NCBI RefSeq assembly: GCF_026151205.1
Contig: NC_087073.1
Location: 8,469,411 to 8,533,410, forward strand
DNA length: 64,000 bases
Source of the DNA: Bolinopsis microptera
Taxonomy: Eukaryota; Ctenophora; Tentaculata; Lobata; Bolinopsidae
Direction: 5' to 3'
Under the pieces are notes generated by a model. The model ran no database searches, was not told the origin of the DNA, and was given only the letters and a program-made list of their open reading frames with translations. The position numbers were made by a program, and so were the translations under genes. The stretch's first letter is position 1; every line of letters starts with the position of its first letter. This document shows positions 22,744-47,086 of this stretch, one piece after another.

Positions 22744-24341
22744 TTAATGTACAAGATTATATAACACTGTAAATCTACTTCCATAACTGAAACACCAATT
22801 ATACTCCCATTTGTTTCTCTTGTCGACCGCATCTTTCGAATGAAGCCAACCTAACCAAGATATTGGATACACAAAAGTACGACTAGAATATATCCGACAG
22901 AAATAAAGGTGCATATTGTCTGCCTGAACCACATCATGAAAGTGAACTGACTCATTATTATAATCTTCCTTCTCAGTACACAGTCTTAAGGTCCACAATG
23001 CAGCTTCACTAGGGACAGTTTTCAGAATAAACCCACATTTACCAGGTAGATTACACGAAGTAACTGAGGGGTGTTTGAAGTGGAACTTTAGTTTTGCTTC
23101 TTTGGACAGGAAGATAAGCGGCTGTATACACGTGTCTACACAATTAATGACAACATGATTATTCTTCTTTCCTTGAGATAAGACAAGCGATCCCAAGTCG
23201 AACGACGAACGACGTAAACTAATGTAATACGTATTAAATTGTGATGGTAAAAGTGACCATCTCGTCTGCCAGCAATATCTGCTAATCTAGTGGACAGTAT
23301 ATCAGTGTTAACTTTATAATCTATATTCTGATACTTGTTCCTGTACCAGTCCCATGTCCACACAGCTTCTATTGCCATCATCAAACCAGTAACATCCTCT
23401 GAAACAGATATCCACTCTAGAAGCTCCTCAAATGATAAGTTAAAATCCAGATCATGATAAATGTTAGGTATACTGTTACATCTGGACACCACAGCGGTCG
23501 ATCTTACTTCACTTGTTGTAGCTAAACAGTCATCCAAAGAACCAATTTTGATAGATTTTGAAAGAAGCTCGAAGCACCATCTTATTTTCAAATCAGGAAG
23601 TCCTTTTAAAGTTGCAAAAAGCTGATTAAACAAAACTCTGTTTGAAGTAAAGCAAAGAGAGAGGTTCAAATTATCCAGCAGATACTCACAAGATACAGGA
23701 ATATTAATTGAGCCCTGAACTTTCAACACTTCTAACAGCTGGTTACTCACAGTTTGTACCACACACTCTACTTCACAACCAGCTAGCTCTATCACCATGT
23801 CTAGCTTCTGTGTAGACAGTCTGTCTGCATTCTCCAAATACTTTTCTATAAACTCCTGTTTCCAGTTCAACATTTCTATCTTGTTGATGCTGATTTTCAG
23901 GAAATCTATGTTATTGAGGTTCTCAAATACAAAAGCTGCTTCCTCAAATAAGTAGAGTAGTTCAGTATAGGATGGTATTTTAACTGACTCAGCAACTTCA
24001 GTAAAATACTCTGCACACTTCCCAACAAGCCAAGTAACCTCAAACACATTAGCTATTTTGTTAATATCCCGGAATACTTCCCGGCTGATTCCCTCTGGAG
24101 TTCCAGAGTATGCCGCATCAACAAACAGCTGAACAGCAGCTTCACTGAACTCTAACATGTCCACACTGGTCATGTGAAGGGTAGTGGTCATGTGATCTAT
24201 TACTGGACTGTTAAAGGAGAGGATCACTGAACTGGCTCGTACCTCACCTCCCTCACTTGTGTTCAGTTTTAGGTTGCTGTGAGTTGGAGATCCTATCAGG
24301 TGTCTTCCAAAATCCATAGGTACACTTACTTTTGGCGCCAT
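22744..24341 (-). CDS. BTB/BACK-type gene, copy 1 (one-base frame break)
   Basis: The N-terminal 357 residues are the same as copy 2 (24796-26394), including flanking DNA, so this is the most recent duplicate of the array. At about 23259-23263 one T is missing (GACCATCTCGTC versus GACCATCTTCGTC), which shifts the frame after ADIAGRR; the remaining C-terminal part is open in the other frame and ends differently from copy 2 (KWEYNWCFSYGSRFTVLYN). Either a very young pseudogene or an assembly error; other genes in this window show similar single-base breaks. The C-terminal divergence from copy 2 begins around residue 482, so this copy has its own variant of the last two variable windows. Confidence 0.75.
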
Positions 24342-24795
24342 ACCTCTGAAAATAAAGTACAATTAAAGATGAAAATAATTCTATGATAGAATTGCTATTT
24401 GCAATGAAATGTGATGAATCTGAAAGAAAAGTAAGTTTAAAATTTGATGTGGTGAGTGAGCTCACATTAAATATTTTGATTAATATCAGATATTCAGTTA
24501 CTTACTTTGACACTACTGAATTAACTCAACTGTTACATTTTACTTTATCAGTCCTTATACATTTACACACATCCGATGGTACCAAATTAATTAAAACACT
24601 CTAAATTCATAGAAATATTCAATTTAATAAATAACAATATTTAAATCAGAGTTAGCGGAGATTTTAAAATCAAAGAAAATATATTGTCACATTGAAAGTT
24701 AGATTAAAAGTATTAAAAATATTATGGAATGTACCAAATGTGGTTTACATTTCAACAATCAAGTCATAATTAATTACGATAATTTAATGAGAGTA

Positions 24796-26394
24796 TCACA
24801 TCTTATACAACACTTTAAATCTACTTTTATCACTGTGACCAAATATAGAACCCCAATTGTTTCTCTTGTCGACTGCATCTTTCGAATGAAGCCAACCTAA
24901 CCAAGATATTGGATACACATAAATATTATCAATAGCAGAAAATATCTGACAGAAATAAAGATGTATATTGTCCGCCTGAACCTCATCATGAAAATGAACT
25001 GACTCATTATTATAATCTTCCTTCTCAGTACACAGTCTCAAGGTCCACAATGCAGCTTCACTAGAGACAGTTTTCAGAATAAACCCACATTTACCAGGTA
25101 GATTACACGAAGTAACTGAGGGGTGTTTGAAGTGGAACTTTAGTTTTGCTTCTTTGGACAGGAAGATAAGCGGCTGTATACACGTGTCTACACAATTAAT
25201 GACAACATGATTATTCTTCTTTCCTTGAGATAAGACAAGCGATCCCAAGTCGAACGACGAACGACGTAAACTAATGTAATACGTATTAAATTGTGATGGT
25301 AAAAGTGACCATCTTCGTCTGCCAGCAATATCTGCTAATCTAGTGGACAGTATATCAGTGTTAACTTTATAATCTATATTCTGATACTTGTTCCTGTACC
25401 AGTCCCATGTCCACACAGCTTCTATTGCCATCATCAAACCAGTAACATCCTCTGAAACAGATATCCACTCTAGAAGCTCCTCAAATGATAAGTTAAAATC
25501 CAGATCATGATAAATGTTAGGTATACTGTTACATCTGGACACCACAGCGGTCGATCTTACTTCACTTGTTGTAGCTAAACAGTCATCCAAAGAACCAATT
25601 TTGATAGATTTTGAAAGAAGCTCGAAGCACCATCTTATTTTCAAATCAGGAAGTCCTTTTAAAGTTGCAAAAAGCTGATTAAACAAAACTCTGTTTGAAG
25701 TAAAGCAAAGAGAGAGGTTCAAATTATCCAGCAGATACTCACAAGATACAGGAATATTAATTGAGCCCTGAACTTTCAACACTTCTAACAGCTGGTTACT
25801 CACAGTTTGTACCACACACTCTACTTCACAACCAGCTAGCTCTATCACCATGTCTAGCTTCTGTGTAGACAGTCTGTCTGCATTCTCCAAATACTTTTCT
25901 ATAAACTCCTGTTTCCAGTTCAACATTTCTATCTTGTTGATGCTGATTTTCAGGAAATCTATGTTATTGAGGTTCTCAAATACAAAAGCTGCTTCCTCAA
26001 ATAAGTAGAGTAGTTCAGTATAGGATGGTATTTTAACTGACTCAGCAACTTCAGTAAAATACTCTGCACACTTCCCAACAAGCCAAGTAACCTCAAACAC
26101 ATTAGCTATTTTGTTAATATCCCGGAATACTTCCCGGCTGATTCCCTCTGGAGTTCCAGAGTATGCCGCATCAACAAACAGCTGAACAGCAGCTTCACTG
26201 AACTCTAACATGTCCACACTGGTCATGTGAAGGGTAGTGGTCATGTGATCTATTACTGGACTGTTAAAGGAGAGGATCACTGAACTGGCTCGTACCTCAC
26301 CTCCCTCACTTGTGTTCAGTTTTAGGTTGCTGTGAGTTGGAGATCCTATCAGGTGTCTTCCAAAATCCATAGGTACACTTACTTTTGGCGCCAT
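24796..26394 (-). CDS. BTB/BACK-type gene, copy 2 (intact)
   Basis: 532 aa from the ATG at 26392-26394; I prefer this start to the ATG seven codons upstream because a 3' splice site (TTTATTTTCAG) ends five bases before it, in all full-length copies. Residues about 22-118 fit a BTB/POZ fold (NLKLNTSEGGEVRASSVILS, YSGTPEGIS, WLVGKCAEYF), and about 122-240 a BACK-like helical region. No kelch, MATH or zinc-finger repeats follow; residues 245-532 are a Cys-containing region (CVDTC, CNLPGKCGF) I cannot assign. BTB/BACK proteins usually recruit substrates to Cullin-3 ligases. Residues 165-238, 389-481 and 495-511 are almost invariant across the array, while 258-276, 328-350, 366-386, 482-494 and 512-522 vary. 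Confidence 0.82.
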   Translation of the reverse strand: MAPKVSVPMDFGRHLIGSPTHSNLKLNTSEGGEVRASSVILSFNSPVIDHMTTTLHMTSVDMLEFSEAAVQLFVDAAYSGTPEGISREVFRDINKIANVFEVTWLVGKCAEYFTEVAESVKIPSYTELLYLFEEAAFVFENLNNIDFLKISINKIEMLNWKQEFIEKYLENADRLSTQKLDMVIELAGCEVECVVQTVSNQLLEVLKVQGSINIPVSCEYLLDNLNLSLCFTSNRVLFNQLFATLKGLPDLKIRWCFELLSKSIKIGSLDDCLATTSEVRSTAVVSRCNSIPNIYHDLDFNLSFEELLEWISVSEDVTGLMMAIEAVWTWDWYRNKYQNIDYKVNTDILSTRLADIAGRRRWSLLPSQFNTYYISLRRSSFDLGSLVLSQGKKNNHVVINCVDTCIQPLIFLSKEAKLKFHFKHPSVTSCNLPGKCGFILKTVSSEAALWTLRLCTEKEDYNNESVHFHDEVQADNIHLYFCQIFSAIDNIYVYPISWLGWLHSKDAVDKRNNWGSIFGHSDKSRFKVLYKM

Positions 26395-26848
26395 ACCTCT
26401 GAAAATAAAGTACAATTAAAGATGAAAATAATTCTATGATAGAATTGCTATTTGCAATGAAATGTGATGAATCTGAAAGAAAAGTAAGTTTAAAATTTGA
26501 TGTGGTGAGTGAGCTCACATTAAATATTTTGATTAATATCAGATATTCAGTTACTTACTTTGACACTACTGAATTAACTCAACTGTTACATTTTACTTTA
26601 TCAGTCCTTATACATTTACACACATCCGATGGTACCAAATTAATTAAAACACTCTAAATTCATAGAAATATTCAATTTAATAAATAACAATATTTAAATC
26701 AGAGTTAGCGGAGATTTTAAAATCAAAGAAAATATATTGTCACATTGAAAGTTAGATTAAAAGTATTAAAAATATTATGGAATGTACCAAATGTGGTTTA
26801 CATTTCAACAATCAAGTCATAATTAATTACGATAATTTAATGAGAGTA

Positions 26849-28447
26849 TCACATCTTATACAACACTTTAAATCTACTTTTATCACTGTGACCAAATATA
26901 GAACCCCAATTGTTTCTCTTGTCGACTGCATCTTTCGAATGAAGCCAACCTAACCAAGATATTGGATACACATAAATATTATCAATAGCAGAAAATATCT
27001 GACAGAAATAAAGATGTATATTGTCCGCCTGAACCTCATCATGAAAATGAACTGACTCATTATTATAATCTTCCTTCTCAGTACACAGTCTCAAGGTCCA
27101 CAATGCAGCTTCACTAGGGACAGTTTTCAGAATAAACCCACATTTACCAGGTAGATTACACGAAGTAACTGAGGGGTGTTTGAAGTGGAACTTTAGTTTT
27201 GCTTCTTTGGACAGGAAGATAAGCGGCTGTTTACACGTGTCTACACAATCAATGACAACATGATTATTCTTCTTTCCTTGAGATAAGACAAGCGGTCCCA
27301 AGTTTAACTCCGTACCTACTAAATTAATTTTATATGTATTAAATTCTGATGGTAAAAGTAACCACCCTCGTCTGTCAGCTATGTCTGCTAATTTAGTGAG
27401 CAATATATCAGTGTTAACTTTATACCTTATATTCTGGTACCTGAACCTGTACCAGTACCATGACCACACAGCTTCTATTGCCATCATCAAACTAGTAACA
27501 TCCTCTGAAACAGATATCCACTCTAGAAGCTCCTCAAATGATAAGTTAAAATCCAGATCATGGTAAATGTTAGGTATAGTGTTACATCTGGACACCACAG
27601 TGGTCGATCTTACTTCACTAGCTGTAGCTGCAGATTCATTAAAAGAACTTATCTTGTTTGACTTTAAAACAAGTTCAAAACACCATCTCATTTTTTCATC
27701 AGAAAGCCCTTTTAAAGTTGCAAAAAGCTGATTAAACAAAACTCTGTTTGAAGTAAAGCAAAGAGAGAGGTTCAAATTATCCAGCAGATACTCACAAGAT
27801 ACAGGAATATTAATTGAGCCCTGAACTTTCAACACTTCTAACAGCTGGTTACTCACAGTTTGTACCACACACTCTACTTCACAACCAGCTAGCTCTATCA
27901 CCATGTCTAGCTTCTGTGTAGACAGTCTGTCTGCATTCTCCAAATACTTTTCTATAAACTCCTGTTTCCAGTTCAACATTTCTATCTTGTTGATGCTGAT
28001 TTTCAGGAAATCTTTGTTATTGAGGTTCTCAAATACAAAAGCTGCTTCTTCAAATAAGTAGAGTAGTTCAGTATAGGATGGTATTTTAACTGATTCAGCA
28101 ACTTCAGTAAAATACTCTGCACACTTCCCAACAAGCCAAGTAACCTCAAACACATTAGCTATCTTGTTGATGTCCCGGAATACTTCCCGGCTGATTCCCT
28201 CTGGAGTTCCAGAGTATGCTGCATCAACAAACAGCTGAACAGCAGCTTCACTGAACTCTAACATGTCCACACTGGTCATATGAAGGGTGGTGGTCATGTG
28301 ATCTACTACTGGACTGTTAAAGGAGAGGATCACTGAACTGGCTAGAACCTCACCTCCCTCACTTGTGTTCAGTTTTAGGTTGCTGTGAGTTGGGGATCCT
28401 ATCAGGTGCCTTCCAAAATCCATAGGTACACATACTTTGGGCGCCAT
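26849..28447 (-). CDS. BTB/BACK-type gene, copy 3 (intact)
   Basis: 532 aa, open throughout. It is a clear mosaic: the last 140 codons and 3' flank match copy 2 (NNWGSIFGHSDKSRFKVLYKM-type end), the stretch around residues 325-390 (WSWYWYRFRYQN, EFNTYKINLVGTELNLG) matches copy 4, and residues 256-275 (KSNKISSFNESAATAS) are its own. Conserved BTB and BACK parts as in copy 2, except LASSV for RASSV at the start of the BTB core. The mosaic pattern points to gene conversion or unequal crossing over between neighbours. Confidence 0.82.
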   Translation of the reverse strand: MAPKVCVPMDFGRHLIGSPTHSNLKLNTSEGGEVLASSVILSFNSPVVDHMTTTLHMTSVDMLEFSEAAVQLFVDAAYSGTPEGISREVFRDINKIANVFEVTWLVGKCAEYFTEVAESVKIPSYTELLYLFEEAAFVFENLNNKDFLKISINKIEMLNWKQEFIEKYLENADRLSTQKLDMVIELAGCEVECVVQTVSNQLLEVLKVQGSINIPVSCEYLLDNLNLSLCFTSNRVLFNQLFATLKGLSDEKMRWCFELVLKSNKISSFNESAATASEVRSTTVVSRCNTIPNIYHDLDFNLSFEELLEWISVSEDVTSLMMAIEAVWSWYWYRFRYQNIRYKVNTDILLTKLADIADRRGWLLLPSEFNTYKINLVGTELNLGPLVLSQGKKNNHVVIDCVDTCKQPLIFLSKEAKLKFHFKHPSVTSCNLPGKCGFILKTVPSEAALWTLRLCTEKEDYNNESVHFHDEVQADNIHLYFCQIFSAIDNIYVYPISWLGWLHSKDAVDKRNNWGSIFGHSDKSRFKVLYKM

Positions 28448-29030
28448 ATCTCTGAAAAGAAAGAACATTTATTGATAAATAATTAAAATGATAAAATTGT
28501 TATTTGTAATAATATTATATGCATCTGAAGGAAGAATAAGTAAATTAAATTTGGATGTGGAGAGTGAATTTACATTGAATATTTTGGTTTAGCAGTTAAT
28601 TGGTTGGTTATTTTAACAGTTTTGAATTAACACAACTGTTAACATTTCTTTTGTCAGTGCTCAAACAATACGACGTTCATTATCTGCCAGCAAATTAATG
28701 AAAAGATTTTAATTAATATCAGATATTCAGAACTTACTTACCTTTACTGTTCTGAATTAATTGAACTGTTAAATTTTTCTATATCAGTGCTTATACAATA
28801 AGTACATTATCTGCCACCAAATGAATGAAAATACAATTTTGTACCAATTTAATGTTAATAAATAACATAATGATAATCACTGAGATCTTAAAATAAAAGA
28901 AAATATATGTCACACTGCTACACTGAAAGTTAGATTAAAATTATTAAAAATATTATGGAATGTATCAACTGTGGTTTACATTAATTTCAATAATCATGTC
29001 ATAATTAATCAAGATAGTTAAATGCCGGTA

Positions 29031-30921
29031 TCAAATCTTATATATAACTTTAAATCTACTTTTATCACTATGATTAAAATGAGTATCCCATTTGTTTCTC
29101 TTGTCGACCGCATCTCTAGAATGAAGCCAACCTAACCAAGATATAGGATGCACTGAAGTATGACCATAAGATGATATACGACAGAAATAAAGGTGCATAT
29201 TGTCCGCCTGAACCTCATCATGAAAGTGAACTGACTCATTATTATAATCTTCCTTCTCAGTACACAGTCTCAAGGTCCACAATGCAGCTTCACTAGGGAC
29301 AGTTTTCAGAATAAACCCACATTTACCAGGTAGATTACACGAAGTAACTGAGGGGTGTTTGAAGTGGAACTTTAGTTTTGCTTCTTCGGAGAGAAATATA
29401 AGCGGCTGATTACACGTGTCTACACAATCAATGACAACATGATTATTCTTCTTTCCTTGAGATAAGACAAGCGGTCCCAAGTTTAACTCCGTACCTACTA
29501 AATTAATTTTATATGTATTAAATTCTGATGGTAAAAGTAACCACCCTCGTCTGTCAGCTATGTCTGCTAATTTAGTGAGCAATATATCAGTGTTAACTTT
29601 ATACCTTATATTCTGGTACCTGAACCTGTACCAGTACCATGACCACACAGCTTCTATTGCCATCATCAAACTAGTAACATCCTCTGAAACAGATATCCAC
29701 TCTAGACAGTGGCGTAACGTTGCCTGTTGGCGCCCCCCTGCCGAAAAGGCGCCCCCCTGTTGGCGCCCCTCCCCTTTTGGTGCCCCTCCCTAAAATTGAA
29801 CAAATTAGGTGATTTTAGAGGATACGCAGATAAAATCTCTAAAAAAGTGTGTATCTAGAGCAAAACGCGCAGTTTTGCTAGTACTTTAGTTAAGTTTTCG
29901 AAATTGTCCCACATTCAAACGACGATTTGGCGCCCCCCTAAGACGGCGCCCCCCTGCACAGCAGGGTCAGCAGGGCCCTTCGTTACGCCACTGACTCTAG
30001 AAGCTCCTCAAATGATAAGTTAGAATCCAGATCATGGTAAATGTTAGGTATAGTGTTACATCTGGACACCACAGTGGTCGATCTTACTTCACTTGCTGTA
30101 GCTAAACAGTCATTTAAAGAACCAATCTTGTTTGCCTTTGAGAGAAGCTCGAAACACCATCTCATTTTCTCATCAGGAAGCCCTTTTAAAGTTGCAAAAA
30201 GCTGATTAAACAAAAGTCTGTTTGAAGTAAAGCAAAGAGAGAGGTTCAAATTATCCAGCAGATACTCACAAGATACAGGAATATTAATTGAGCCCTGAAC
30301 TTTCAACACTTCTAACAGCTGGTTACTCACAGTTTGTACCACACACTCTACTTCACAACCAGCTAGCTCTATCACCATGTCTAGCTTCTGTGTAGACAGT
30401 CTGTCTGCATTCTCCAAATACTTTTCTAAAAACTCCTGTTTCCAGTTCAACATTTCTATCTTGTTGATGCTGATTGTCAGGAAATCTTTGTTATTGAGGT
30501 TCTCAAACACAAAAGCTGCTTCTTCAAATAAATAGAGTAGTTCAGTATAGGATGGTATTTTAACTGATTCAGCAACTTTAGTAAAATACTCTGCACACTT
30601 TCCAACAAGCCAAGTAACCTCAAACACATTAGCTATCTTGTTGATGTCCCTGAATACTTCCCGGCTGATTCCCTCTGGAGTTCCAGAGTAGGCAGCATCA
30701 ACAAACAGTTGAACAGCAGCTTCACTGAATTCTAACATGTCCACACTGGTCATGTGAAGGGTAGTGGTCATGTGATCTATTACTGGACTGTTAAAGGAGA
30801 GGATCACTGAACTGGCTCGTACCTCACCTCCCTCACTTGTGTTCAGTTTTAGGTTGCTGTGAGTTGGGGATCCTATCAGGTGCCTTCCAAAATCCATAGG
30901 TACACTTACTTTGGGTGCCAT
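29031..30921 (-). pseudogene. BTB/BACK-type gene, copy 4, interrupted by a hAT-type MITE
   Basis: The N-terminal part (30002-30921) and C-terminal part (29031-29698) are both open in frame but separated by a 287-bp MITE at 29707-29993 with an 8-bp target duplication. The insertion falls after residue 307 (SFEELLE). Apart from the insertion there is no other lesion, so it is recent. The C-terminal variable windows (RISSYGHTSVHPIS, KWDTHFNHSDKS) are unlike those of other copies. As it stands the protein would be truncated after the BACK region unless the MITE is spliced out. Confidence 0.85.
29707..29993. mobile_element. hAT-type MITE inserted in BTB copy 4
   Basis: Terminal inverted repeats CAGTGGCGTAACG and CGTTACGCCACTG, flanked by the 8-bp direct repeat ACTCTAGA at 29699-29706 and 29994-30001. 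Internal sequence rich in GGCGCCCCCCT; no transposase. The TIR start CAG-GGCGTA and 8-bp duplication are typical of the hAT superfamily. Other BTB copies have a single ACTCTAGA at this place. Confidence 0.95.
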
Positions 30922-31363
30922 ATCTCTGAAAAGAAAGTACAATTAATGATTAAAAATTCTATGATAGAATTGTAAATTGTAATAAAATGTGATGCATCCG
31001 AAGGAAAAGTAAGTTTAAAATTAGATGTGGAGAGTGAGCTCAAATTGAATATTTCGGTTTAGCAGTTAAACGGTAGGTTATTTTAGAAGTTTTGAATTAA
31101 CTCAACTTTTAACATTTCTTTTGTAAGTACTCAGACAGTACGTACATTATCTGCCACCTAATTAATGAAAATACATCTCATAAAAATAATCAATTTAATG
31201 TTAATGAATAACATAAAGATAATCACAGATATCTTAAAATCAAAGAAAATATGTGACACTAAAAGTTAGACTAAAAGTATTAAAAGTATTTAAGAATGTA
31301 CCCACTGTGGTTTGCTTTTTCAACAATCAAGTCATAATTAATTATGATAAATTAATGAGAGTA

Positions 31364-32965
31364 TCACATCTTATACAACACTTTAAATCTACTTTTATCA
31401 CTGTGACTAAAAATAGACTCCCATTGGTTTCTCTTGTCGACTGCATCTTTTGAATGAAGCCAACCTAACCAAGATATTGGATACACAAAAGTATCACCAT
31501 GATATATTTCACAGATATAAATGTGCATATTGTCCGCCTGAACCTCATCATGAAAGTGAACTGACTCATTATTATAATCTTCCTTCTCAGTACACAGTCT
31601 CAAGGTCCACAATGCAGCTTCACTAGGGACAGTTTTCAGAATAAACCCACATTTACCAGGTAGATTACACGAAATAACTGAGGGGTGTTTGAAGTGGAAC
31701 TTTAGTTTTGTTTCTTTGGACAGGAAGATAAGCGGCTGTTTACACGTGTCTACACAATTTATGACAACATGATTATTCTTCTTTCCTTGAGAAACCACAA
31801 GCCGTCCCAAGTTTAATTGCAAATCAGCAAAATTAACAAACCAAAGTTTATACGTACTAAATACTGATGGTAAAAGTGACCACCCTCGTCTGCCAGCTAT
31901 GTCTACTAATTTAGTGAGCAATATATCAGTGTTAACTTTATAATTTATATTCTGATACTTGTATCTGTAACAGTTCCATGTCCACACAGCTTCTATTGCC
32001 ATCATCAAACTAGTAACATCCTCTGAAACAGATATCCACTCTAGAAGCTCCTCAAATGATAAGTTACAATCCAGATCATGGTAAATTTTAGGTATAGTGT
32101 TATATCTGGACACCACAGTGGTAGATCTTACTTCACTTGCTGTAGCTAAGGAGTCATTCAAAGAACATTTCTTGTGTGACTTTAAAACCAGTTTAAAACA
32201 CCATCTCATTTTCTCATCAGGAAGCCCTTCTAAAGTTGCAAAAAGTTGATCAAACAAAACTCTGTTTGAAGTAAAGCAAAGAGAGAGGTTCAAATTATCC
32301 AGCAGATACTCACAAGATACAGGAATATTAATTGAGCCCTGAACTTTCAACACTTCTAACAGCTGGTTACTCACAGTTTGTACCACACACTCTACTTCAC
32401 AACCAGCTAGCTCTATCACCATGTCTAGCTTCTGTGTAGACAGTCTGTCTGCATTCTCCAAATACTTTTCTATAAACTCCTGTTTCCAGTTCAACATTTC
32501 TATCTTGTTGATGCTGATTTTCAGGAAATCTTTGTTATTGAGGTTCTCAAATACAAAAGCTGCTTCTTCAAATAAGTAGAGTAGTTCAGTATAGGATGGT
32601 ATTTTAACTGATTCAGCAACTTCAGTAAAATACTCTGCACACTTCCCAACAAGCCAAGTAACCTCAAACACATTAGCTATCTTGTTAATGTCCCGGAATA
32701 CTTCCCGGCTGATTCCCTCTGGAGTTCCAGAGTATGCTGCATCAACAAACAGCTGAACAGCAGCTTCACTGAACTCTAACATGTCCACACTTGTCATGTG
32801 AAGGGTAGTGGTCATGTGATCTACTACTGGACTGTTAAAGGATAGTATCACTGAACTGGCTCGTACCTCACCTCCCTCACTTGAGTTCAGTTTTAGATTG
32901 CTGTGAGTTGGGGATCCTATCAGGTGCCTTCCAAAATCCATAGGTACACTTACTTTTGGTGTCAT
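31364..32965 (-). CDS. BTB/BACK-type gene, copy 5 (intact)
   Basis: 533 aa, open throughout; starts MTPKVSVPMDFG (Thr for Ala at residue 2). Variable windows: KSHKKCSLNDSLATAS near 262-278, WTWNCYRYKYQNINYKVN near 328-346, VFSTYKLWFVNFADLQLNLG near 368-388 (three residues longer than copy 2), and IYICEIYHGDTFVYPIS near 482. The constant blocks are nearly unchanged. Shares the upstream splice acceptor directly before the ATG. Confidence 0.82.
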   Translation of the reverse strand: MTPKVSVPMDFGRHLIGSPTHSNLKLNSSEGGEVRASSVILSFNSPVVDHMTTTLHMTSVDMLEFSEAAVQLFVDAAYSGTPEGISREVFRDINKIANVFEVTWLVGKCAEYFTEVAESVKIPSYTELLYLFEEAAFVFENLNNKDFLKISINKIEMLNWKQEFIEKYLENADRLSTQKLDMVIELAGCEVECVVQTVSNQLLEVLKVQGSINIPVSCEYLLDNLNLSLCFTSNRVLFDQLFATLEGLPDEKMRWCFKLVLKSHKKCSLNDSLATASEVRSTTVVSRYNTIPKIYHDLDCNLSFEELLEWISVSEDVTSLMMAIEAVWTWNCYRYKYQNINYKVNTDILLTKLVDIAGRRGWSLLPSVFSTYKLWFVNFADLQLNLGRLVVSQGKKNNHVVINCVDTCKQPLIFLSKETKLKFHFKHPSVISCNLPGKCGFILKTVPSEAALWTLRLCTEKEDYNNESVHFHDEVQADNMHIYICEIYHGDTFVYPISWLGWLHSKDAVDKRNQWESIFSHSDKSRFKVLYKM

Positions 32966-33356
32966 ATCTCTGAAAATAAAGTACATTAAATGATTAATAA
33001 TTAAAGATAGAATTGTAATCTGCTATAATATATGGTGCATCTGAAGGAAAAGTAAGTTTATAATTTGATGTAGAATATTTTGGTTTAGCATTTAATCAGT
33101 TAGTTTTGAATTAACTCCACTGTTAACATTTCTTTTATAATTGCTCATATAATACGATACATACACTGTCTGCAACCAAATTAATGAAAATTCATCTTTC
33201 GTAAAAAATTATTTTATGAATACGTAACATAATAAGAATCACAGATATCTTAAATTCGAAGAAAACATGCCATGTTGACAATTGGATTAATTAATGTATT
33301 AAAAATATTTATAAATGTGTCCACTGTAATTTGAATTTACAACAATGAAGTCAAAA

Positions 33357-33775: not shown

Positions 33776-33777
33776 TA

Positions 33778-36650: not shown

Positions 36651-36955
36651 ATCTCTGAAACATTTACATATCAATTGATAGGGAAACAATGTCTGGCCAG
36701 ATCTGAGATAAAATATTATATTATATATTAATCAGTAATAAATATCATTAATTTCAATTTCCACGCAGTTTAGCTAGTCAATGTGTAGCAACTTACGTCA
36801 AATATATCATTATGAGTTATAGAAAAACTGATACGTCATGATAACTTCATAGTAAACGTCGAGAAATGATAATAGTAAACAATTAGTAAATGAGAAAGTT
36901 TCTTGTTGTCAAAATTCCTTGGTTTTCAAACAATATTAAACAATCATTTTGAATA

Positions 36956-37683: not shown

Positions 37684-37685
37684 TA

Positions 37686-38251
37686 CAGGGTGGCCCATAA
37701 AACACTAACCATCCTTATCTCTTAAAATTGTTACAGGTCGCTGAGATCTTGCAAATTATTTTAAAAACAAAAAGTGGCATAACTTATATTCACCATAATC
37801 CATCGCACATTCCATTCTCTCTATATTTTAACTGATAAGGACTATCACAGATGATCCTTCCTGCTTGTTTATATCGTTCTTCTCACACGGAATGTGCGAT
37901 GGATCATGGTAAATAGAATTGGTAAAACGTGAATAAATCGCTGGTTTTTATATTTTTTTAACCAGGATTTTTTTGGCGGTTCCTATTAGCCAATGTAAAC
38001 AGTTCTAGGTGAGAAATTAAAGCTAGCACGCTCAGGAGCTAACTTTGTCAGACAAACTCAGACTCACACAAAACTTGGCACGAAGTTTTGTCTAATTATG
38101 ATTGACATTCTCTAAAAATTTGAAGCAAAAATATTAATCAGAACGTAAGTTATGGCAATTTTCCATTCTGAAATAAAATAATTTGCAAGATCTCAGCGAC
38201 CTGTAACAATTTTAAGAGATAAGGATGGGTAGTGTTTTATGGGCCACCCTG
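37686..38251. mobile_element. Fold-back element (mariner/Tc1-like ends), copy 2
   Basis: CAGGGTGGCCCATAAAACAC at left and GTTTTATGGGCCACCCTG at right, flanked by TA on each side (37684-37685, 38252-38253). Same insertion site in BTB sequence as copy 1 at 33778, but part of the left arm is deleted. Termini are intact, which defines the element's ends. Confidence 0.9.
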
Positions 38252-38517: not shown

Positions 38518-38631
38518 ATGTTCAGTAACATAATGAGAATCACGGAGATCTTAAAATCAAAGAAAATATATCACATTGAAAGTAATTACAACAATCAAGT
38601 CAAAATTAATTATGATAATTTAATGAGAGTA

Positions 38632-40236
38632 TCACATCTTATACAACACTTTAAATCTACTTTTATCACTCAACCCATAATATTTAGCATATTCAGACTC
38701 CCATTCGTTTCTCTTGTCGACTGCATCTTTCGAATAAAGCCAACCTAACCAAGATATTGGATACACATAAGTACCACTAGAATATATCACACAGAAATAA
38801 AGATGCATATTGTCCGCCTGAACCTCATCATGAAAGTGAACTGACTCATTATTATAATCTTCCTTCTCAGTACACAGTCTCAAGGTCCACAATGCAGCTT
38901 CACTAGGGACAGTTTTCAGAATAAACCCACATTTACCAGGTAGATTACACGAAGTAACTGAGGGGTGTTTGAAGTGGAACTTTAGTTTTGCTTCTTTGGA
39001 CAGGAAGATAAGCGGCTGTTTACACGTGTCTACACAATTAATGACAACATGATTATTCTTATTTTCTTGAGCTGAGACAAGCTGTCCCAAGTTTAACAGC
39101 GAACCATATAAACTTATTGTATACGTACTTAATTCTGATGGTAAAAGTGACCACCCTCGTCTGCCAGCTATGTCTACTAATTTAGTGAGTAATATATAAG
39201 TCACGTTAATTTTATACCTTATCTGATACCTGTTCCTGTACCAGCACCATGTATACACAGCTTCTATTGCCATCATCAAACTAGTAACATCCTCTGAAAC
39301 AGATATCCACTCTAGAAGCTCCTCAAATGATAAGTTAAAATCCAGATCATGGTAAATGTTAGGTATAGTGTTACATCTGGACACCACAGTGGTCGATCTT
39401 ACTTCACTTGTTGTAGCTGTACAGTCATCCAAAGAACTTATCTTGTTTGACTTTGAAAGTAGCTTAAAACACCATCTTATTTTCTCATCAGGAACTCCTT
39501 TTAAAGTTCCAAACAGCTGATCAAACAAAACTCTGTTTGAAGTAAAGCAAAGAGAGAGGTTCAAATTATCCAGCAGATACTCACAAGATACAGGAATATT
39601 AATTGAGCCCTGAACTTTCAACACTTCTAACAGCTGGTTACTCACAGTTTGTACCACACACTCTACTTCACAACCAGCTAGCTCTATCACCATGTCTAGC
39701 TTCTGTGTAGACAGTCTGTCTGCATTCTCCAAATACTTTTCTATAAACTCCTGTTTACAGTTCAACTTTTCTATCTTGCTGATGCTGATTTTCAGGAAAT
39801 CTTTGTTCTTGAGGTTCTCAAATACAAAAGCTGCTTCTTCAAATAAGTAGAGTAGTTCAGTATAGGATGATATTTTAACTGATTCAGCAACTTCAGTAAA
39901 ATACTCTGCACACTTCCCAACTAGCCAAGTAACCTCAAACACATTAGCTATCTTGTTGATGTCCTGGAATACTTCCCGGCTGATTCCCTCTGGAGTTCCA
40001 GAGTATGCAGCATCAACAAAGAGCTGAACAGCAGCTTCACTGAACTCTAACATGTCCACACTGGTCATGTGAAGGGTAGTGGTCATGTGATCTATTACTG
40101 GACTGTTGAAGGAGAGGATCACTGAACTGGCTCGTACCTCACCTCCCTCACTTGTGTTCAGTTTTAGGTTGCTGTGAGTTGGGGATCCTATCAGGTGCCT
40201 TCCAAAATCCATAGGTACACATACTTTGGGTGCCAT
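38632..40236 (-). CDS. BTB/BACK-type gene, copy 8 (intact)
   Basis: 534 aa, open throughout, starting MAPKVCVPMDFG. Distinct variants: Gly-Val in FGTLKGVPDEK, YTWCWYRNRYQIRYKINVTY near 328-347, TISLYGSLLNLGQLVSAQENK near 372-392, VIYSSGTYVYPIS near 483, and EWESEYAKYYGLSDKSRFKV at the end, four residues longer than in copy 2. BTB and BACK blocks are as in the other copies (residue ISSY for IPSY). With copy 7 it forms a close pair, part of a larger duplicated segment that also includes the flanking spacer and three-hairpin repeat. Confidence 0.82.
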   Translation of the reverse strand: MAPKVCVPMDFGRHLIGSPTHSNLKLNTSEGGEVRASSVILSFNSPVIDHMTTTLHMTSVDMLEFSEAAVQLFVDAAYSGTPEGISREVFQDINKIANVFEVTWLVGKCAEYFTEVAESVKISSYTELLYLFEEAAFVFENLKNKDFLKISISKIEKLNCKQEFIEKYLENADRLSTQKLDMVIELAGCEVECVVQTVSNQLLEVLKVQGSINIPVSCEYLLDNLNLSLCFTSNRVLFDQLFGTLKGVPDEKIRWCFKLLSKSNKISSLDDCTATTSEVRSTTVVSRCNTIPNIYHDLDFNLSFEELLEWISVSEDVTSLMMAIEAVYTWCWYRNRYQIRYKINVTYILLTKLVDIAGRRGWSLLPSELSTYTISLYGSLLNLGQLVSAQENKNNHVVINCVDTCKQPLIFLSKEAKLKFHFKHPSVTSCNLPGKCGFILKTVPSEAALWTLRLCTEKEDYNNESVHFHDEVQADNMHLYFCVIYSSGTYVYPISWLGWLYSKDAVDKRNEWESEYAKYYGLSDKSRFKVLYKM

Positions 40237-40720
40237 ATCTCTGAAAATAAAGTACAATTAATGATGAAAATGATTCTATGATAGAATTGTTATTTGTAAT
40301 AATGTGATGCATCTGAACATGAAGGAAAAGTAAGTTTAAAATTTGATGTGGTGAGTGAGCTCTCATTCAATTTTTAAATATTTTGATTAATATCAGGTAA
40401 TCAGTTACTTACTTTGACAGTTCTGAATTAACTCAACTCTTAAATTTTACTTTTATATCGGTGCTTTAAAACAATACATACATCCGATGGTACGAAATTG
40501 ATTTAAACACAATTCATAAGAATAATCAATTTTATGAATAACGTAATCAAAGTTAGTGGAGATCTTAAAACCAAAGAAAATATGTCATATTGAAATATGT
40601 CATATTGAAAGTTAGATTAAAAGTATTGAAAATATTATATAATTTACAAACTGTGGTTTGCATTTTGAACAAGGGCTCAACAATCAATCCATAATTAATC
40701 ATGATGATGTAATGTCATTA

Positions 40721-41836
40721 TCAAATCTTATATAAAACTTTAAATCTACTTTCATCACTCAAGCCATAATATATAGCATATTCAGACTCCCAATTGTTTC
40801 TCTTGTCGACTGCAGCTTTCGAATGAAGCCAACCTAACCAAGATATTGGATACACATAATGACGACTAGAATATAATATCACACAGAAATAAAGGTGCAT
40901 TATATTGTCCGCCTGAACCTCATCATGAAAGTGAACTGACTCATTATTATAATCTTCCTTCTCAGTACACAGTCTCAAGGTCCACAATGCAGCTTCACTA
41001 GGGAAAGTTTTCAGAATAAACCCACATTTACCAGGTAGATTACACGAAGTAACTGAGGGGTGTTTGAAGTGGAACTTTAGTTTTGCTTCTTTGGACAGGA
41101 AGATAAGCGGCTGTTTACACGTGTCTACACAATTAATGATAACATGATTATTCTTCTTTCCTTGAGATAAGAGAAGCGATCCCAAGTTTAATCGCGAATG
41201 AGCTAAATGAATTTGATAGGTTCCGAATTGTGATGGTAAAAGCGACCATCGTCGTCTGTCAGCCAGTTCAGCTAATTTAGTGAGTAATATATCAGAGTTA
41301 ACTGTATACTTTATATTCTGATACTTGTACCTGTACCAGCACCATGTATACACAGCTTCTATTGCCATCATCAAACTAGTAACATCTTCTGAAACAGATA
41401 TCCACTCTAGAAGCTCCTCAAATGATAAGTTAAAATCCAGATCATGATAAATGTTAGGTATTATAGTGTAACATCTGGACACCACAGTGGTCGATCTTAC
41501 TTCACTTGCTGTAGCTGCACAGTCATCCAAAGTACTCATCTTGTTTGACTTTGAAAGAAGCTTGAAACACCATCTCATTTTCTCATCGGGAAGCCCTTCC
41601 AAAAATGTAAACAGCTGATCAAACGAAACTCTGTTTGCAGTAAAGTAAAGAGAGAGGTTCAAATTATCCAGCAGATACTCACAAGATACAGGAATATTAA
41701 TTGAGCCCTGAACTTTCAACACTTCTAACAGCTGGTTACTCACAGTTTGTACCACACACTCTACTTCACAACCAGCTAGCTCTATCACCATGTCTAGCTT
41801 CTGTGTAGACTGTCTGTCTGCATTCTCCAAATACTT
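40721..41836 (-). pseudogene. BTB/BACK-type gene, copy 9, C-terminal part of a split gene
   Basis: Codes for residues from about 167 (KYLENADRQST) to the end. Upstream it runs straight into an inverted BTB segment at about 41837, so the BTB domain is missing. Variable windows differ from all others (TYQIHLAHSRLNLGSLLL, VILYSSRHYVYPIS, NWESEYAIYYGLSDES). The N-terminal fragment at 44666-45035 probably is the other half; about 45 codons between them are lost. At about 41138 this copy shows the empty TA site of the fold-back element found in copies at 33.8 and 37.7 kb. Confidence 0.8.
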
Positions 41837-42055
41837 TTTATTATGGTAATACTTATGTGTATCCAATATCTTGGCTAGGTTGGCTTCATACGAAAGATGC
41901 GGTCGACAAGAGAAACGAATGGGAGTCTATATTATTAAGTTACGGTAATGGAAATAAATTTTAAGTGGTGTATAAAATGTGATACTCTCATTAAATAATC
42001 ATGATTAATTATGACTTGATTGTTGAAAATTAAAATTATAGTGGGTTCATTTATA

Positions 42056-44350
42056 ACTGAGAATGAAGCTTATGTCAGTGAAAAAGAAGCAGGAACGTAA
42101 GCTTGAGATTCCTGCTATTGAGCATCTGCGTGATCATTCACTTGTTTCCGAATACAATATTGTTCTGAGAAACAAATTTGACTGTTTGGAACCTGAGGTT
42201 GACCTGGAATCAATGTGGGACAAATTCAAGACAACTGTCCAACAAGTTTCCATGGAAATCCTTGGGCAAAGACCTCGAAAAAAGAAGGACAGGCACCAAT
42301 CTCAGAAGACAAAAGAATTATTGAAGAACCGTAAGGAATTTAAGCGTAAAGACCCTAATTCGAACGCTAACAGGTCAGAGTATTCTAGATTGAATAAGCT
42401 CTTTAAAAAAAGTAGCAAGGTGGACGATAACAACTGGGCACGTAGAATGGCCAATGACTTGGAAGAAGCTGCTAGAAAAGGTCAGCAACGTGAGGTATGG
42501 CAGAAGATCAATGTCATATCTGGAAAGAAGAAGAAGCAGTCAACTGCAGTTAGAGACGTATCTGGCCAGTTGATTGCCGACCCACATGCCCAGAAAGAAA
42601 GGTGGAAAGAGCACTTCTCTAGGCTATTGAACCCTCCCCCGCAAGAGGCCAATATTTCTGACTTAGACAACATCCCTCCGCAACCCAGTTTTGACGACCT
42701 TTCCGATTCGGATGAAGCTCCTACAAGAAACGAGATTGTTGATGCCCTCAAAAAACTCAAGAATCACAAAAGTCCAGGAGTGGATGGTATCACCAACGAG
42801 CAACTTAAGTATGGACAGGATGGGTTGGTCGATCAACTAGTTGTGTTGTTCAAGAAAGTGTGGGAAGATGAGAAGATTCCTGAGGATTGGTCCAAAGGTG
42901 TTATTATCATCGTTGGAAAGAAAGGTGACACCTCTCATTGCGCTAACAACAGGGGCATTACATTAAGATCCACAGCCTCGAAGCTCCTGCAGATGATACT
43001 CCTGCGGAGACTTAGCAATGGCATGGAAAAATTCCTCCGGGAGAATCAAAGTGGTTTTAGACAGAATCGCTCATGTATTGACCAGGTTTATTCACTCCGC
43101 TGTATTATACACCAATGCATTGAGTATAATATCCCTCTGTATATTAATTTTGTTGATTTCAAAGCAGCTTTTGATTCAATTGACAGGCAGTTCATTTGGA
43201 GAAGTATGCAGCACTACGGCTTACCTGACAAGTACATTAGAATTATGAAGGCGTTCTTCACTCACACAGTTAGTGCTGTTAGGGTCAATGGAGAGGTTAC
43301 AGGTTGGTTTGATGTCAACTCGGGTACTGGGCAAGGCGATATACAGGGACCACCAGTCTTCAACTTTTGTTTGAATTTTTCGGCATACCTTATGGAACTG
43401 AACAAGGTCATTAGCAAAGGGGCTTTATTACAGCTGCCAGCCCCCGGGGTAGAAGAGAAACATCTTTTGGACACTGATTACGCTGATGACATGGCTATGT
43501 TAGATAACTCAAAAGAGGGGCTGCAAGAAACCACTGACCTTCTCTGCAAATACAGTGCCTATGCGGGTCTGAAGGTTAATGCTGGCAAAACACAGAGCAT
43601 GGTTGTCAGCAAAAGTGCATCGCAGAGGCCGTATTCTAAAGACGACACCATGGACATCAATGTGGAAGGTCTCCCAATACAGCAGGTCAGCAATTTCACT
43701 TACTTGGGTGCAATCATCAGTGCGAATGGAACAATTGACAAAGAACTGTCAGCTCGAATTCAAAAGGCCTCTGGGGCATTCTATCAGCTCAGCAGTATAT
43801 GGTACAGTCGCAACATCAAGACTCCAACTAAAATCAGGATTTACAAAGCGGCTGTTCTCACTATACTGCTTTATGGAAGTGAGGTATGGAATACCACACA
43901 GACGCAGATGAAAAGATTTGAGGTGTTCCATCATAGATGTCTGAGGAGAATCCTGAAAATAAAATGGTTTTATCATGTATCTAATGCTGATGTACTTAAG
44001 CGGGCTAACATCGCCCCTGTTGATACTTTCGTACGAGCAGCTAGACTCCGATGGTTTGGCCATGTGGTGAGGATGCCAGAAGAAAGAATACCCAACTATC
44101 TTCTGCACTGGATCCCAAAGCATGGTAAAAGGTCAAGAGGTAGACCTCGGAAAAACTGGTTGTCATGTGTCCGGGAGGATGCAGCAATCTTCACAGGTGT
44201 CGATAACATCACGATAGAAGATGCAGAACAACAAGCTACAGACAGGGTTCACTGGAGAGGTCTAATACACCGGAGAAAGGAGTTACTATGTGGTGCAGGC
44301 CACTCCAACGACTAGGAGGAGACCTTTTCAAGTACAAGTAGTAAGTAGTA
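42056..44350 (+). mobile_element. 5'-truncated non-LTR retrotransposon (LINE) with 8-bp target duplication
   Basis: Flanked by CATTTATA at 42048-42055 and 44351-44358; the homologous spacer at about 33290-33320 has one copy of this site. The 3' end is a short AGTA-rich simple repeat rather than poly(A). Confidence 0.9.
42063..44315 (+). CDS. LINE ORF2, reverse transcriptase part
   Basis: 750 aa, uninterrupted. Non-LTR reverse transcriptase: linker typical of the region after the endonuclease, then NHKSPGVDGITNEQLK, PEDWSKGVIIIVGKKGD, NNRGITLRSTASKLLQ, ENQSGFRQNRSCIDQV, FVDFKAAFDSIDR, SGTGQGDIQGPP and the catalytic DYADDMAML, followed by a thumb and a C-terminal region (RLRWFGHVVRM, RGRPRKNW) that is common in animal LINE families related to the craniofacial-development-protein-2-like elements. 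The apurinic endonuclease domain expected before it is missing, so the insertion is 5'-truncated and cannot move by itself, but the intact frame says it is young. RT would copy its own RNA at a nicked target. Confidence 0.93.
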   Translation: MKLMSVKKKQERKLEIPAIEHLRDHSLVSEYNIVLRNKFDCLEPEVDLESMWDKFKTTVQQVSMEILGQRPRKKKDRHQSQKTKELLKNRKEFKRKDPNSNANRSEYSRLNKLFKKSSKVDDNNWARRMANDLEEAARKGQQREVWQKINVISGKKKKQSTAVRDVSGQLIADPHAQKERWKEHFSRLLNPPPQEANISDLDNIPPQPSFDDLSDSDEAPTRNEIVDALKKLKNHKSPGVDGITNEQLKYGQDGLVDQLVVLFKKVWEDEKIPEDWSKGVIIIVGKKGDTSHCANNRGITLRSTASKLLQMILLRRLSNGMEKFLRENQSGFRQNRSCIDQVYSLRCIIHQCIEYNIPLYINFVDFKAAFDSIDRQFIWRSMQHYGLPDKYIRIMKAFFTHTVSAVRVNGEVTGWFDVNSGTGQGDIQGPPVFNFCLNFSAYLMELNKVISKGALLQLPAPGVEEKHLLDTDYADDMAMLDNSKEGLQETTDLLCKYSAYAGLKVNAGKTQSMVVSKSASQRPYSKDDTMDINVEGLPIQQVSNFTYLGAIISANGTIDKELSARIQKASGAFYQLSSIWYSRNIKTPTKIRIYKAAVLTILLYGSEVWNTTQTQMKRFEVFHHRCLRRILKIKWFYHVSNADVLKRANIAPVDTFVRAARLRWFGHVVRMPEERIPNYLLHWIPKHGKRSRGRPRKNWLSCVREDAAIFTGVDNITIEDAEQQATDRVHWRGLIHRRKELLCGAGHSND

Positions 44351-44665
44351 CATTTATAAATATTTTTTATACATTAATTAATCCAACTTTCAACATGGCA
44401 TATTTTCTTCGACTTTTTAGGTATCTGCGACTCACATTATGATATTCATAAAATTAATTATTTTTCCGAAAAATGTATTTTTATTAATTTGGTTGCAGCA
44501 GGTTGCAGACAGTGTTTGTATTGTATTATATGAGCACTGATAAAAGAAATGTTAACAGTTGAGTTCAAAACTAATAAAGTAAGTAACTGATTAACTGCTA
44601 AACCAAAATATTCCACATAAAATTATAAACTTACTTTTCCTTCAGATGCACCACATATTATTAGA

Positions 44666-45035
44666 TTATTTTAACTGATTCAGCAACTTCAGTAAAATAC
44701 TCTGCACACTTCCCAACAAGCCAAGTAACCTCAAACACATTAGCTATCTTGTTGATGTCCCGGAATACTTCCCGGCTGATTCCCTCTGGAGTTCCAGAGT
44801 AGGCTGCATCAACAAACAGCTGAACAGCAGCTTCACTGAATTCTAACATGTCCACACTGGTCATGTGAAGGGTAGTGGTCATGTGATCTATTACTGGACT
44901 GTTAAAGGAGAGGATCACTGAACTGGCTCGTACCTCACCTCCCTCACTTGTGTTCAGTTTTAGGTTGCTGTGAGTTGGGGATCCTATCAGGTGCCTTCCA
45001 AAATCCATAGGTACACTTATTACTTTGGGTGCCAT
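44666..45035 (-). pseudogene. BTB/BACK-type gene, copy 10, N-terminal part of a split gene
   Basis: Contains the start (MAPKVISVPMDFG, with one extra Ile) and the whole BTB-like part up to AESVKI, then stops at the inverted segment. Upstream spacer and splice acceptor are of the usual type. With 40721-41836 it likely represents one ancestral gene broken by an inversion. The BTB part alone (about 123 residues) could still be translated. Confidence 0.8.
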
Positions 45036-45482
45036 ATCTCTGAAAAGAAAGTACAATTAATGATTAATAATTCTATGATAGAATTGTTAATTGTAATGAA
45101 ATGTGATGCATTTGAAGGAAAGTAAGTTTAAATTATGATGTGGAGAGTGAGCTCACATTGAATATTTTAGTTTAGCAGTTAATTGGTTGGTTATTTTTAC
45201 AGTTTTGAATTAACTCAACTTTTAACATTTTTTTAAGTGGTCATACAGTACTTCAGTATGTATATTATCTGCCACCAAATTAATGAAAATACACTTTCGT
45301 AAAAATAATCAATTTAATGTTAATGAATATACATAATGAGAATCGCGGACATCTTAAAATTAAAGAAAATATGTCACATTGAAAATTAGATTAAAAGTAT
45401 TAAAAATATTATGGAATGTACCAAATGTGGTTTACATTTCAACAATCAAGTCATAATTAATTATGATAATTTAATGAGAGTA

Positions 45483-47086
45483 TCACATCTTATACAACAC
45501 TTTAAATCTACTTTTATCACTGTGACCAAATATAGAACCCCAATTGTTTCTCTTGTCGACTGCATCTTTCGAATGAAGCCAACCTAACCAAGATATTGGA
45601 AACATCCTAGTATCGCTAGCAGAAAATATACGACAGAAATAAATGTGCATATTGTCCGCCTGAACCTCATCATGAAAGTGAACTGACTCATTATTATAAT
45701 CTTCCTTCTCAGTACACAGTCTCAAGGTCCACAATGCAGCTTCACTAGGGACAGTTTTCAGAATAAACCCACATTTACCAGGTAGATTACACGAAGTAAC
45801 TGTGGGGTGTTTGAAGTGGAACTTTAGTTTTGCTTCTTTGGACAGGAAGATAAGCGGCTGTTTACACGTGTCTACACAATTAATGACAACATGATTATTC
45901 TTCTTTCCCTGAGATAAGACAAGCGGTCCCAAGTTTATCCCCCAACCTACTAAACTAATGTAATACCTATTAAATTCTGGTTGTAAAAGTGACCATCCTC
46001 GTCTGCCAGCAATGTCTGCTAATTTATTGAGTAATATATCAGTGTTAACTGCTTAACTGTATACTTTACATTCTGATACTTGTACTTGTACCAGCACCAT
46101 GTATACACGGCTTCTATTGCCATCATCAAACTAGTAACATCCTCTGAAACAGATATCCAATCTAGAAGCTCCTCAAATGATAAGTTAAAATCCAGATCAT
46201 GGTAAATGTTAGGTATAGTGTTACATCTGGACACCACAGTGGTCGATCTTACTTCACTTGCTGTAGCTGCACAGTCATCCAAAGAAACAATCTTGTTTGA
46301 CTTTGAAAGAAGCTTGAAACACCATCTTATATTCTCATCAGGAAGCCCCTCTAAAGTTGCAAACAGCTGATCAAACAAAACTCTGTTTGAAGTAAAGCAA
46401 AGAGAGAGGTTCAAATTATCCAGCAGATACTCACAAGATACAGGAATATTAATTGAGCCCTGAACTTTCAACACTTCTAACAGCTGGTTACTCACAGTTT
46501 GTACCACACACTCTACTTCACAACCAGCTAGCTCTATCACCATGTCTAGCTTCTGTGTAGACAGTCTGTCTGCATTCTCCAAATACATTTCTATAAACTC
46601 CTGTTTCCAGTTCATCATTTCTATCATGTTGATGCTGATTTTCAGGAAATCTTTGTTATTGAGGTTCTCAAATACAAAAGCTGCTTCTTCAAATAAGTAG
46701 AGTAGTTCAGTATATGATGGTATTTTAACTGATTCAGCAACTTCAGTAAAATACTCTGCACACTTCCCAACTAGCCAAGTAACCTCAAACACATTAACTA
46801 TCTTGTTGATGTCCCGGAATACTTCCCGGCTGATTCCCTCTGGAGTTCCAGAGTATGCCGCATCAACAAACAACTGAACAGCAGCTTCACTGAACTCTAA
46901 CATGTCCACACTGGTCATGTGAAGGGTAGTGGTCATGTGATCTATTACTGGACTGTTAAAAGAGAGGATCACTGAACTGGCTCGTACCTCACCTCCCTCA
47001 CTTGTGTTCAGTTTTAGGTTGCTGTGAGTTGGGGATCCTATCAGGTGCCTTCCAAAATCCATAGGTACACATACTTTGGGTGCCAT
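45483..47086 (-). CDS. BTB/BACK-type gene, copy 11 (8-bp duplication breaks the frame)
   Basis: First copy downstream of INTS2. N-terminal 355 residues open (MAPKVCVPMDFG to YTVK); at about 46040-46055 a direct duplication (TTAACTGC TTAACTG) shifts the frame; the C-terminal part reopens from about 45990 and ends NNWGSIFGHSDKSRFKVLYKM-like as in copies 2 and 3. It carries unusual changes in the BACK part (NMIEMMNWK, EMYLEN). The 5' flank between this gene and INTS2 (47087-47390) is duplicated at 36651-36955. An 8-bp duplication is less like a sequencing error than the single-base breaks, so a true pseudogene is likely. Confidence 0.77.

Follow-up and report, generated by a model that had tools for sequence, protein, structure and literature searches.

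A tandem array of BTB genes with hypervariable C-terminal windows in the ctenophore Bolinopsis microptera

A 64,000-nt stretch of contig NC_087073.1 of the ctenophore Bolinopsis microptera (the whole stretch analysed here is called the window) contains twelve pieces of one unit of about 2 kb, each derived from a gene of a BTB family and arranged in tandem at positions 22744–47125 of the minus strand. An earlier note on this DNA had proposed such an array, and it is indeed there, with four of the twelve pieces intact. The locus raises the question of why the copies preserve most of the protein and vary at a few fixed places, and what such a protein might do. Our analysis shows that these genes consist of a conserved BTB part, a conserved middle and a C-terminal region that combines four hypervariable windows with a fixed core. 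Residues 1–230 are under purifying selection and the four windows, V2–V5, under diversifying selection, and the copies are mosaics produced by exchange between copies.

Diversifying selection and mosaicism in the variable windows

Residues are numbered on copy 2, with the Met of MAPKV as 1. Five variable windows had been marked by eye on the array, and in copy 2 they lie on the minus strand at 25567–25623 (V1, residues 258–276), 25345–25413 (V2, 328–350), 25237–25299 (V3, 366–386), 24913–24951 (V4, 482–494) and 24829–24861 (V5, 512–522). Within the array, 30 of 87 alignment columns inside the five windows carried three or more residue types vs. 5 of 445 outside, a contrast that is circular, as the windows had been picked on these same copies. 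The claim that the windows differ in nearly every copy proved too strong: we counted 7 distinct types among 9 copies for V1, 6 among 9 for V2, 7 among 9 for V3, 8 among 10 for V4 and 6 among 8 for V5, and neighbouring copies share windows. The intervening blocks described as almost unchanged are not invariant, with four types in nine copies for residues 165–238, ten in ten for 389–481 (every copy set apart by a few residues) and five in ten for 495–511.

An independent check came from relatives elsewhere in the genome (264.65 Mb, 232 contigs, labelled C1, C2 and so on). Matches to BTB were found on C1–C11, C13 and the small contig C76. With copy 5 as the query, at least 83 matching stretches were obtained on many contigs at 29–100% identity, with 80 of 407 candidates scored. 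By hand count, 55 of the 83 fall in open frames that are 500 aa or longer. Six of the 55 contain stops within the matching stretch, and another three stretches, beyond the 55, are second pieces of frames already counted. The relatives fetched include clusters on C3 (10 units), C5, C8, C2 (9.5 Mb) and C11, and the clusters on C3 (at 20.4 Mb), C5 (15.8 Mb) and C2 (9.5 Mb) are absent from the 83 stretches. No relatives were confirmed among 43 pattern matches in viral contigs or 130 in prokaryote contigs, neither collection being one of animal genomes.

From these sequences we assembled six paralog sets: W, the array in the window (9 copies), C3 (8), MLP (9, dispersed over loci on C11, C5 and C3), C8 (7), C2 (4) and C8b (3). 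The five sets other than W are 25–65% identical to copy 5. Fragments (copies 6, 8 and 11), members with a broken or split frame (L055, L057, L064, L066, L068, L069) and L044–L049 were left out of the selection sets, as were L065 and L067, which do figure in alignment A3, and the partial or irregular L014, L017–L020 and L031. Aligned and placed in no set were L005, L007, L011, L012, L015, L016, L028, L030 and L034–L040. C8b (L029, L032, L033) was used for entropy profiles only. Copy 10 was omitted from the comparison of the pairwise homoplasy index (PHI) and identity and from the simulations, L010 and L013 from the PHI and identity comparison, and L013 from the block test.

Column entropy was measured in each of the six sets separately, on one alignment of 57 sequences. 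Peaks at residues 325–348, 373–384, 481–492 and 505–528 were repeated in the five sets other than W; the bins raised in all six sets were 337–348, 373–384, 481–492 and 505–528, with 325–336 raised in most. Residues 1–108 had low entropy throughout (all 12-residue bins ≤0.46). In 14 of the 15 pairs of sets, the smoothed full-length profiles agreed better than 97.8% or more of circular shifts did; the exception was W–C2, for which 6.5% of shifts scored as high. With the profiles restricted to the part from residue 239 onward, 10 of the 15 pairs passed at the 5% level. The distance from one conserved anchor to the next, compared among 36 members, ranged over 21–43 residues around V2, 26–35 around V3, 12–24 around V4 and 16–62 after V4. 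It also varied outside V2–V5 (60–92 in the linker with V1, 29–44 after V3), and this variation, while compatible with surface loops, is not confined to the windows.

To compare codon changes, we took V2 as residues 325–350, V3 as 366–386, V4 as 481–494 and V5 as 508–527 for the site counts. In three sets the codon models pointed to the windows. The likelihood-ratio statistic (LRT) of M2a over M1a was 110 for W, 83 for MLP and 98 for C3, and the extra class, with omega of 8.7, 5.2 and 7.2, respectively, made up 3.6–6.5% of codons. Sites with a posterior above 0.9 fell within V2–V5 in 12 of 13 cases for W, 14 of 15 for MLP and 12 of 12 for C3, and residues 1–230 analyzed alone gave no significant signal in any of the three sets. 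For C8 and C2 the LRTs were 15 and 12 and the omega values 2.9 and 2.1; two sites, 236 and 485, were flagged in C8. When sequence blocks were each given their own tree, 10 of the 12 blocks holding V2–V5 reached nominal p < 0.05 in W, MLP and C3, vs. 1 of 9 other blocks (uncorrected for multiple tests). The block with V1 (231–310) was not significant in any of these sets (p = 0.21, 0.68 and 1.0). V1 is variable and linker-like, and its standing as a selected window is doubtful; of the five windows first proposed, it is thus V2–V5, recurrent in five other sets, that stand.

We also determined the ratio of nonsynonymous to synonymous differences per site (pN/pS), with codon-bootstrap intervals, in columns chosen as the top 15% of entropy in the other sets and measured in the set left out. 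The ratio was relatively higher in the windows than elsewhere in all five sets examined, as in MLP (1.81, 1.28–2.68, vs. 0.40) and C2 (2.12, 1.20–6.04, vs. 0.36), and exceeded 1 in just three. The comparison of dN/dS per codon suggested in the earlier note gave, in three sets, a class with omega of 5–9 that falls mostly within the windows, and a window pN/pS above 1 in three of five. The refuting pattern named there, windows whose dN/dS does not exceed 1 combined with neutral decay elsewhere, is not what we found; pN/pS outside the windows was 0.36–0.48 in the five sets. The view of an expanded BTB family with fast-evolving parts is likewise borne out by a large genome-wide family with a scaffold under purifying selection and windows that diversify.

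Exchange between copies is evident both from tests and from direct comparison. PHI rejected the absence of recombination in W, C3 and C8, where none of 1000 permutations gave so low a value, and in MLP (p 0.006). When the DNA is divided into 18 bins of 30 codons, copies 1 and 2 are the same in the first 14 and differ from there on; copies 2 and 3 show differences in many bins as far as about residue 450 and are identical thereafter; copies 3 and 4 are identical over 301–390, which spans V2 and V3, and different on either side. In the C3 array, L053 and L057 (compared by eye) as well as L054 and L058 share V3 and differ in other windows. These shared V3 sequences look like further signs of window exchange.

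As recombination can mimic selection in codon models, we simulated 40 null data sets for W with five blocks on different trees and no positive selection. Null LRTs ranged from 6.7 to 47.6, vs. 114.4 for the real data on the same eight W copies. Nominal p-values of the codon models are therefore badly inflated by recombination, and the real W statistic lies above the whole simulated range.

Array layout, domains and surroundings

The array comprises four intact open reading frames (ORFs; 539–541 aa), three copies with a single frame break, one interrupted copy and four fragments, all on the minus strand. The coding part of each copy is a single open frame starting with MAPKV or a similar sequence. 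Copies 1, 2 and 3 are spaced 2052–2053 bp apart; the other spacings are irregular, at 1.4–4.8 kb. Intact ORFs are found in copy 2 (24796–26415; its likely ATG, at 26394, is directly preceded by an acceptor-like ...TTTTCAG), copy 3 (26849–28468), copy 5 (31364–32986; likely ATG, of MTPKV, at 32965) and copy 9 (38632–40257). The frame is broken at about residue 360 in copy 1 (22744–24362), at V3 in copy 7 (35044–36689), which is a near-twin of copy 9, and near V2 in copy 12 (45483–47125). Copy 4 (29031–30942) is interrupted by about 290 bp between an N-terminal part at 29983–30942 and a C-terminal part at 29031–29669. The remaining pieces are a 3′ fragment (copy 6, 33357–33806), a 199-bp fragment (copy 8, 37485–37683), a 5′-truncated unit (copy 10, 40721–41866) and a 5′ fragment (copy 11, 44661–45056).

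All three single frame breaks fall at about residues 343–375, inside V2 or V3, between the two or next to them. Chance, indel-prone windows or assembly error may lie behind this, and the breaks themselves may be real or artefactual. A splice-acceptor-like site was seen just upstream of the coding start in 29 of 44 members, a count made by a loose rule with no background control, in which the start of copy 5 was set five codons too far downstream. The family genes could thus possess an untranslated first exon.

Pfam BTB (PF00651) was detected in 35 of 36 members at E ≤ 1, the table giving no number above the gathering cut-off. Relative to this cut-off of 20.5 bits, copy 5 (21.8) and copy 9 (23.8) score above and copy 3 (18.1) below. 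The other 15 Pfam families listed gave weak matches, each in at most 4 of the 36 members. Within the BTB part, an F-R-[DE] motif (32690–32698, minus strand, in copy 5) is retained, with F in 35, R in 34 and D or E in 36 of the 36 members; it is a candidate phi-X-E Cullin-3 motif and may be equivalent to the known one. The C-terminal region has a core of the form C-x5-C ... H-x-H-x8-H (31523–31669, minus strand, in copy 5), in which the cysteines are conserved in 36 and 32 members, the histidines in 35, 35 and 36, and the G after C-x5-C in all 36. Such a core may form a metal site.

As the earlier note had also stated, the C-terminal half appears to belong to no recognised family, and Pfam and PDB sequence searches gave none here. 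The PDB sequence search with copy 5 alone returned just three gp41 chains (E 0.25–0.93), and the searches with copy 5 and with alignments A2 and A3 gave no stable match. Three candidates were rejected. ‘Effector CCG28’ matched the C-terminal core at E 0.0073 with alignment A2 and was gone with the broader A3 (E ≤ 2), as expected of a chance match. Chain 9r1o (sc-apCC-6-DPH-NR; E 0.056, then 0.013) was set aside as a presumed chance match. Pfam DUF7830, with a best E of 0.0036 and matches in 4 of 36 members, was under the cut-off where scores were shown and was not accepted.

The array lies next to a gene for INTS2, whose C-terminal part (47391–48911, minus strand) matches Pfam INTS2 at 1.4e-64 over profile positions 593–1044. 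A duplicated 3′ part of INTS2 (36956–37484, minus strand) is fused to the fragment copy 8, beside copies 7 and 8 (region 36956–37714). This fusion is likely a by-product of array growth, and the presence of an INTS2 piece duplicated inside the array suggests that the array grew from the INTS2 end. A reverse-transcriptase ORF (42063–44315, plus strand; Pfam RVT_1 1.3e-25) is inserted in the array; it is uninterrupted, has a DUF6451 match just under the cut-off and is bordered on either side by inverted pieces of BTB units. Copies 10 and 11 are possibly halves of one unit split by this insertion. Elsewhere in the window, at 1202–9740, small proteins that look secreted occur as two near-duplicate pairs (437/295 aa and 206/206 aa), the first pair with PPKVVTEPPKE repeats and, in the one protein scanned, a weak PAN match below the cut-off. 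These pairs make up a second young tandem family close to the BTB array. An SLX1-like endonuclease gene (GIY-YIG and SLX1_C) is located at 59739–60476.

Candidate functions and rival explanations

On balance, we lean toward the view that these genes form an expanded family of BTB substrate receptors, probably of Cullin-3, with diversifying recognition loops. The proteins would act inside the cell, the BTB part docking on Cullin-3, perhaps through the candidate F-R-[DE] motif, and the windows forming loops in contact with a target protein, which would be ubiquitinated once bound. Tandem duplication, mutation and indels in the loops, and gene conversion would generate new specificities. Fast-changing targets would most simply be proteins of intracellular parasites or viruses; this is the weakest step, and parasite defence as the reason for the family is less likely than the recognition-adaptor role itself. 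A wider proposal is possible, and we put it forward tentatively: an intracellular recognition system of the ctenophore lineage, with well over 50 BTB receptors encoded in the germline, would mark foreign or non-self proteins for ubiquitination by means of an undescribed C-terminal module with the C-x5-C/H-x-H core, in which selection and gene conversion diversify four loops.

A number of results weigh against the recognition-adaptor reading. The M1a/M2a models were run with the author's own code, the simulations cover W alone, and the LRTs of C8 and C2 are within the recombination-only range simulated for W. Window pN/pS has an interval that includes 1 in W (1.29, 0.89–2.01, vs. 0.48 elsewhere) and is below 1 in C3 (0.74, 0.54–1.00, vs. 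0.38) and C8 (0.73, 0.59–0.88, vs. 0.45), which may reflect saturation or weaker selection; the high ratio of C2 stems partly from few synonymous window changes (pS 0.064 vs. 0.114). Codons were flagged outside V2–V5 at 273 in W (within V1) and 406 in MLP, codon 210 was flagged in the C3 run on residues 1–230, and the flagged sites of C2 are spread over the protein. Among the blocks, whose p-values lack a multiple-test correction, two with windows were not significant (W 501–end, with V5, which is significant in two other sets; MLP 361–400, with V3), and a non-window block was (MLP 401–470, p 0.024). Some bins outside the windows had high entropy in single sets (265–288 in C8 and C3, 397–408 in C8, 457–468 in C2). 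BACK, which the earlier note had assigned to the array genes, was found by Pfam (PF07707) in 0 of 36 members, a divergent BACK recognisable only by structure remaining possible, and the 46 BACK matches of the genome all lie away from the family loci that were fetched. AlphaFold models from window-only alignments (13 rows, and 7 rows for the C-terminal region) had mean predicted local distance difference test values of 31.6 and 31.3 and were unusable.

Selection and mosaicism are silent on what is bound, and internal conflict could take the place of parasite defence, in the form of self/non-self recognition, gamete conflict or selfish genes of a toxin-antidote type. Nematode adaptor families have defence and selfish-element readings alike, and we regard internal conflict as unlikely here, although it is the best of the rivals. 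Less probable again is that the family consists of BTB proteins that recruit no Cullin-3 and instead form oligomers with a transcriptional or structural role, whose partner loops evolve fast. A BTB domain alone is no proof of Cullin-3 binding, Pfam lists no BACK, and there are matches to EST1_DNA_bind (2 of 36 members), TFIIA_gamma_C (at most three) and Stork_head (at most two); these, however, are isolated and weak (best E 0.014–0.036), no such domain recurs, and F-R-[DE] is retained in nearly all of the 36 members.

We consider it improbable that the pattern is noise of birth-and-death evolution, in which the windows of young duplicates are spacers free of constraint and gene conversion keeps the constant parts alike. 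Eight of the twelve array pieces are broken, interrupted or fragments, recombination is clear, and V1 may fit such a spacer. Neutral spacers, however, should give an omega of about 1 and not 5–9, and the recurrence of windows at the same positions is unexpected in sets 25–42% identical to copy 5. Moreover, pS in W is higher in the windows (0.132 vs. 0.079), not lower, and 55 of the 83 copy-5 matches lie in long open frames. Finally, the B. microptera assembly was made with wtdbg and polished with short reads, according to its description (PMC10232365), and three frame breaks lie near V2 and V3, but an origin of tandem copies and mosaics in a chimeric or haplotype-confused long-read assembly is hardly credible, since the copies differ chiefly by replacement changes at fixed positions and the same pattern is seen in the sets on C2, C3 and C8 and in the dispersed MLP set.

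Comparison with known families

KLHL proteins are BTB-BACK-Kelch adaptors of Cullin-3. The family described here resembles them in its N-terminal BTB, conserved middle and C-terminal putative recognition region, and differs in its hypervariable windows and in having neither a BACK nor a Kelch match (Kelch 0 of 36 members at E ≤ 1, HMMER filters discarding the majority of hits with E above about 0.1). NLR and other tandem immune receptors combine a constant signalling part with hypervariable recognition windows and gene conversion. All three features, a constant part, hypervariable windows and gene conversion, recur here, whereas NACHT, LRR and TIR do not appear in the Pfam listings of the BTB members.

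The MATH-BTB (bath) genes of Caenorhabditis and the MATH-BTB genes of grasses are reportedly tandem and lineage-specific, with a positively selected recognition part. They share with the present family a BTB adaptor joined to a fast-evolving recognition part, tandem arrays and lineage-specific expansion. In contrast, MATH was detected in 0 of our 36 members (at E ≤ 1, under the same filters), BTB occupies the N terminus of our proteins with the variable part at the C terminus, and the phylum is different. The F-box adaptors of C. elegans, an expansion of 300–500 genes, have been proposed to act against intracellular pathogens (PMC12919956), and the same 2026 review holds that evidence for nematode adaptors targeting pathogen proteins is still scarce (PMC12919956). 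Both are expanded families of ubiquitin-ligase adaptors, with an F-box there and BTB here. By analogy, the nematode adaptor families appear to be the nearest counterpart.

For ctenophores, we found no printed description of a BTB expansion or of selected BTB adaptors in the available portion of the open-licence literature, which is no proof of novelty, and BTB is mentioned 0 times in the main text of a survey of ctenophore immune receptors (PMC11797021). Nematodes and plants are already known to have expanded sets of ubiquitin-ligase adaptors whose recognition parts evolve fast. If our reading is true, the same design, with an unrelated recognition module, was invented independently in an animal lineage that is among the earliest to branch off, and the family supplies concrete windows that can be tested for parasite or self ligands.

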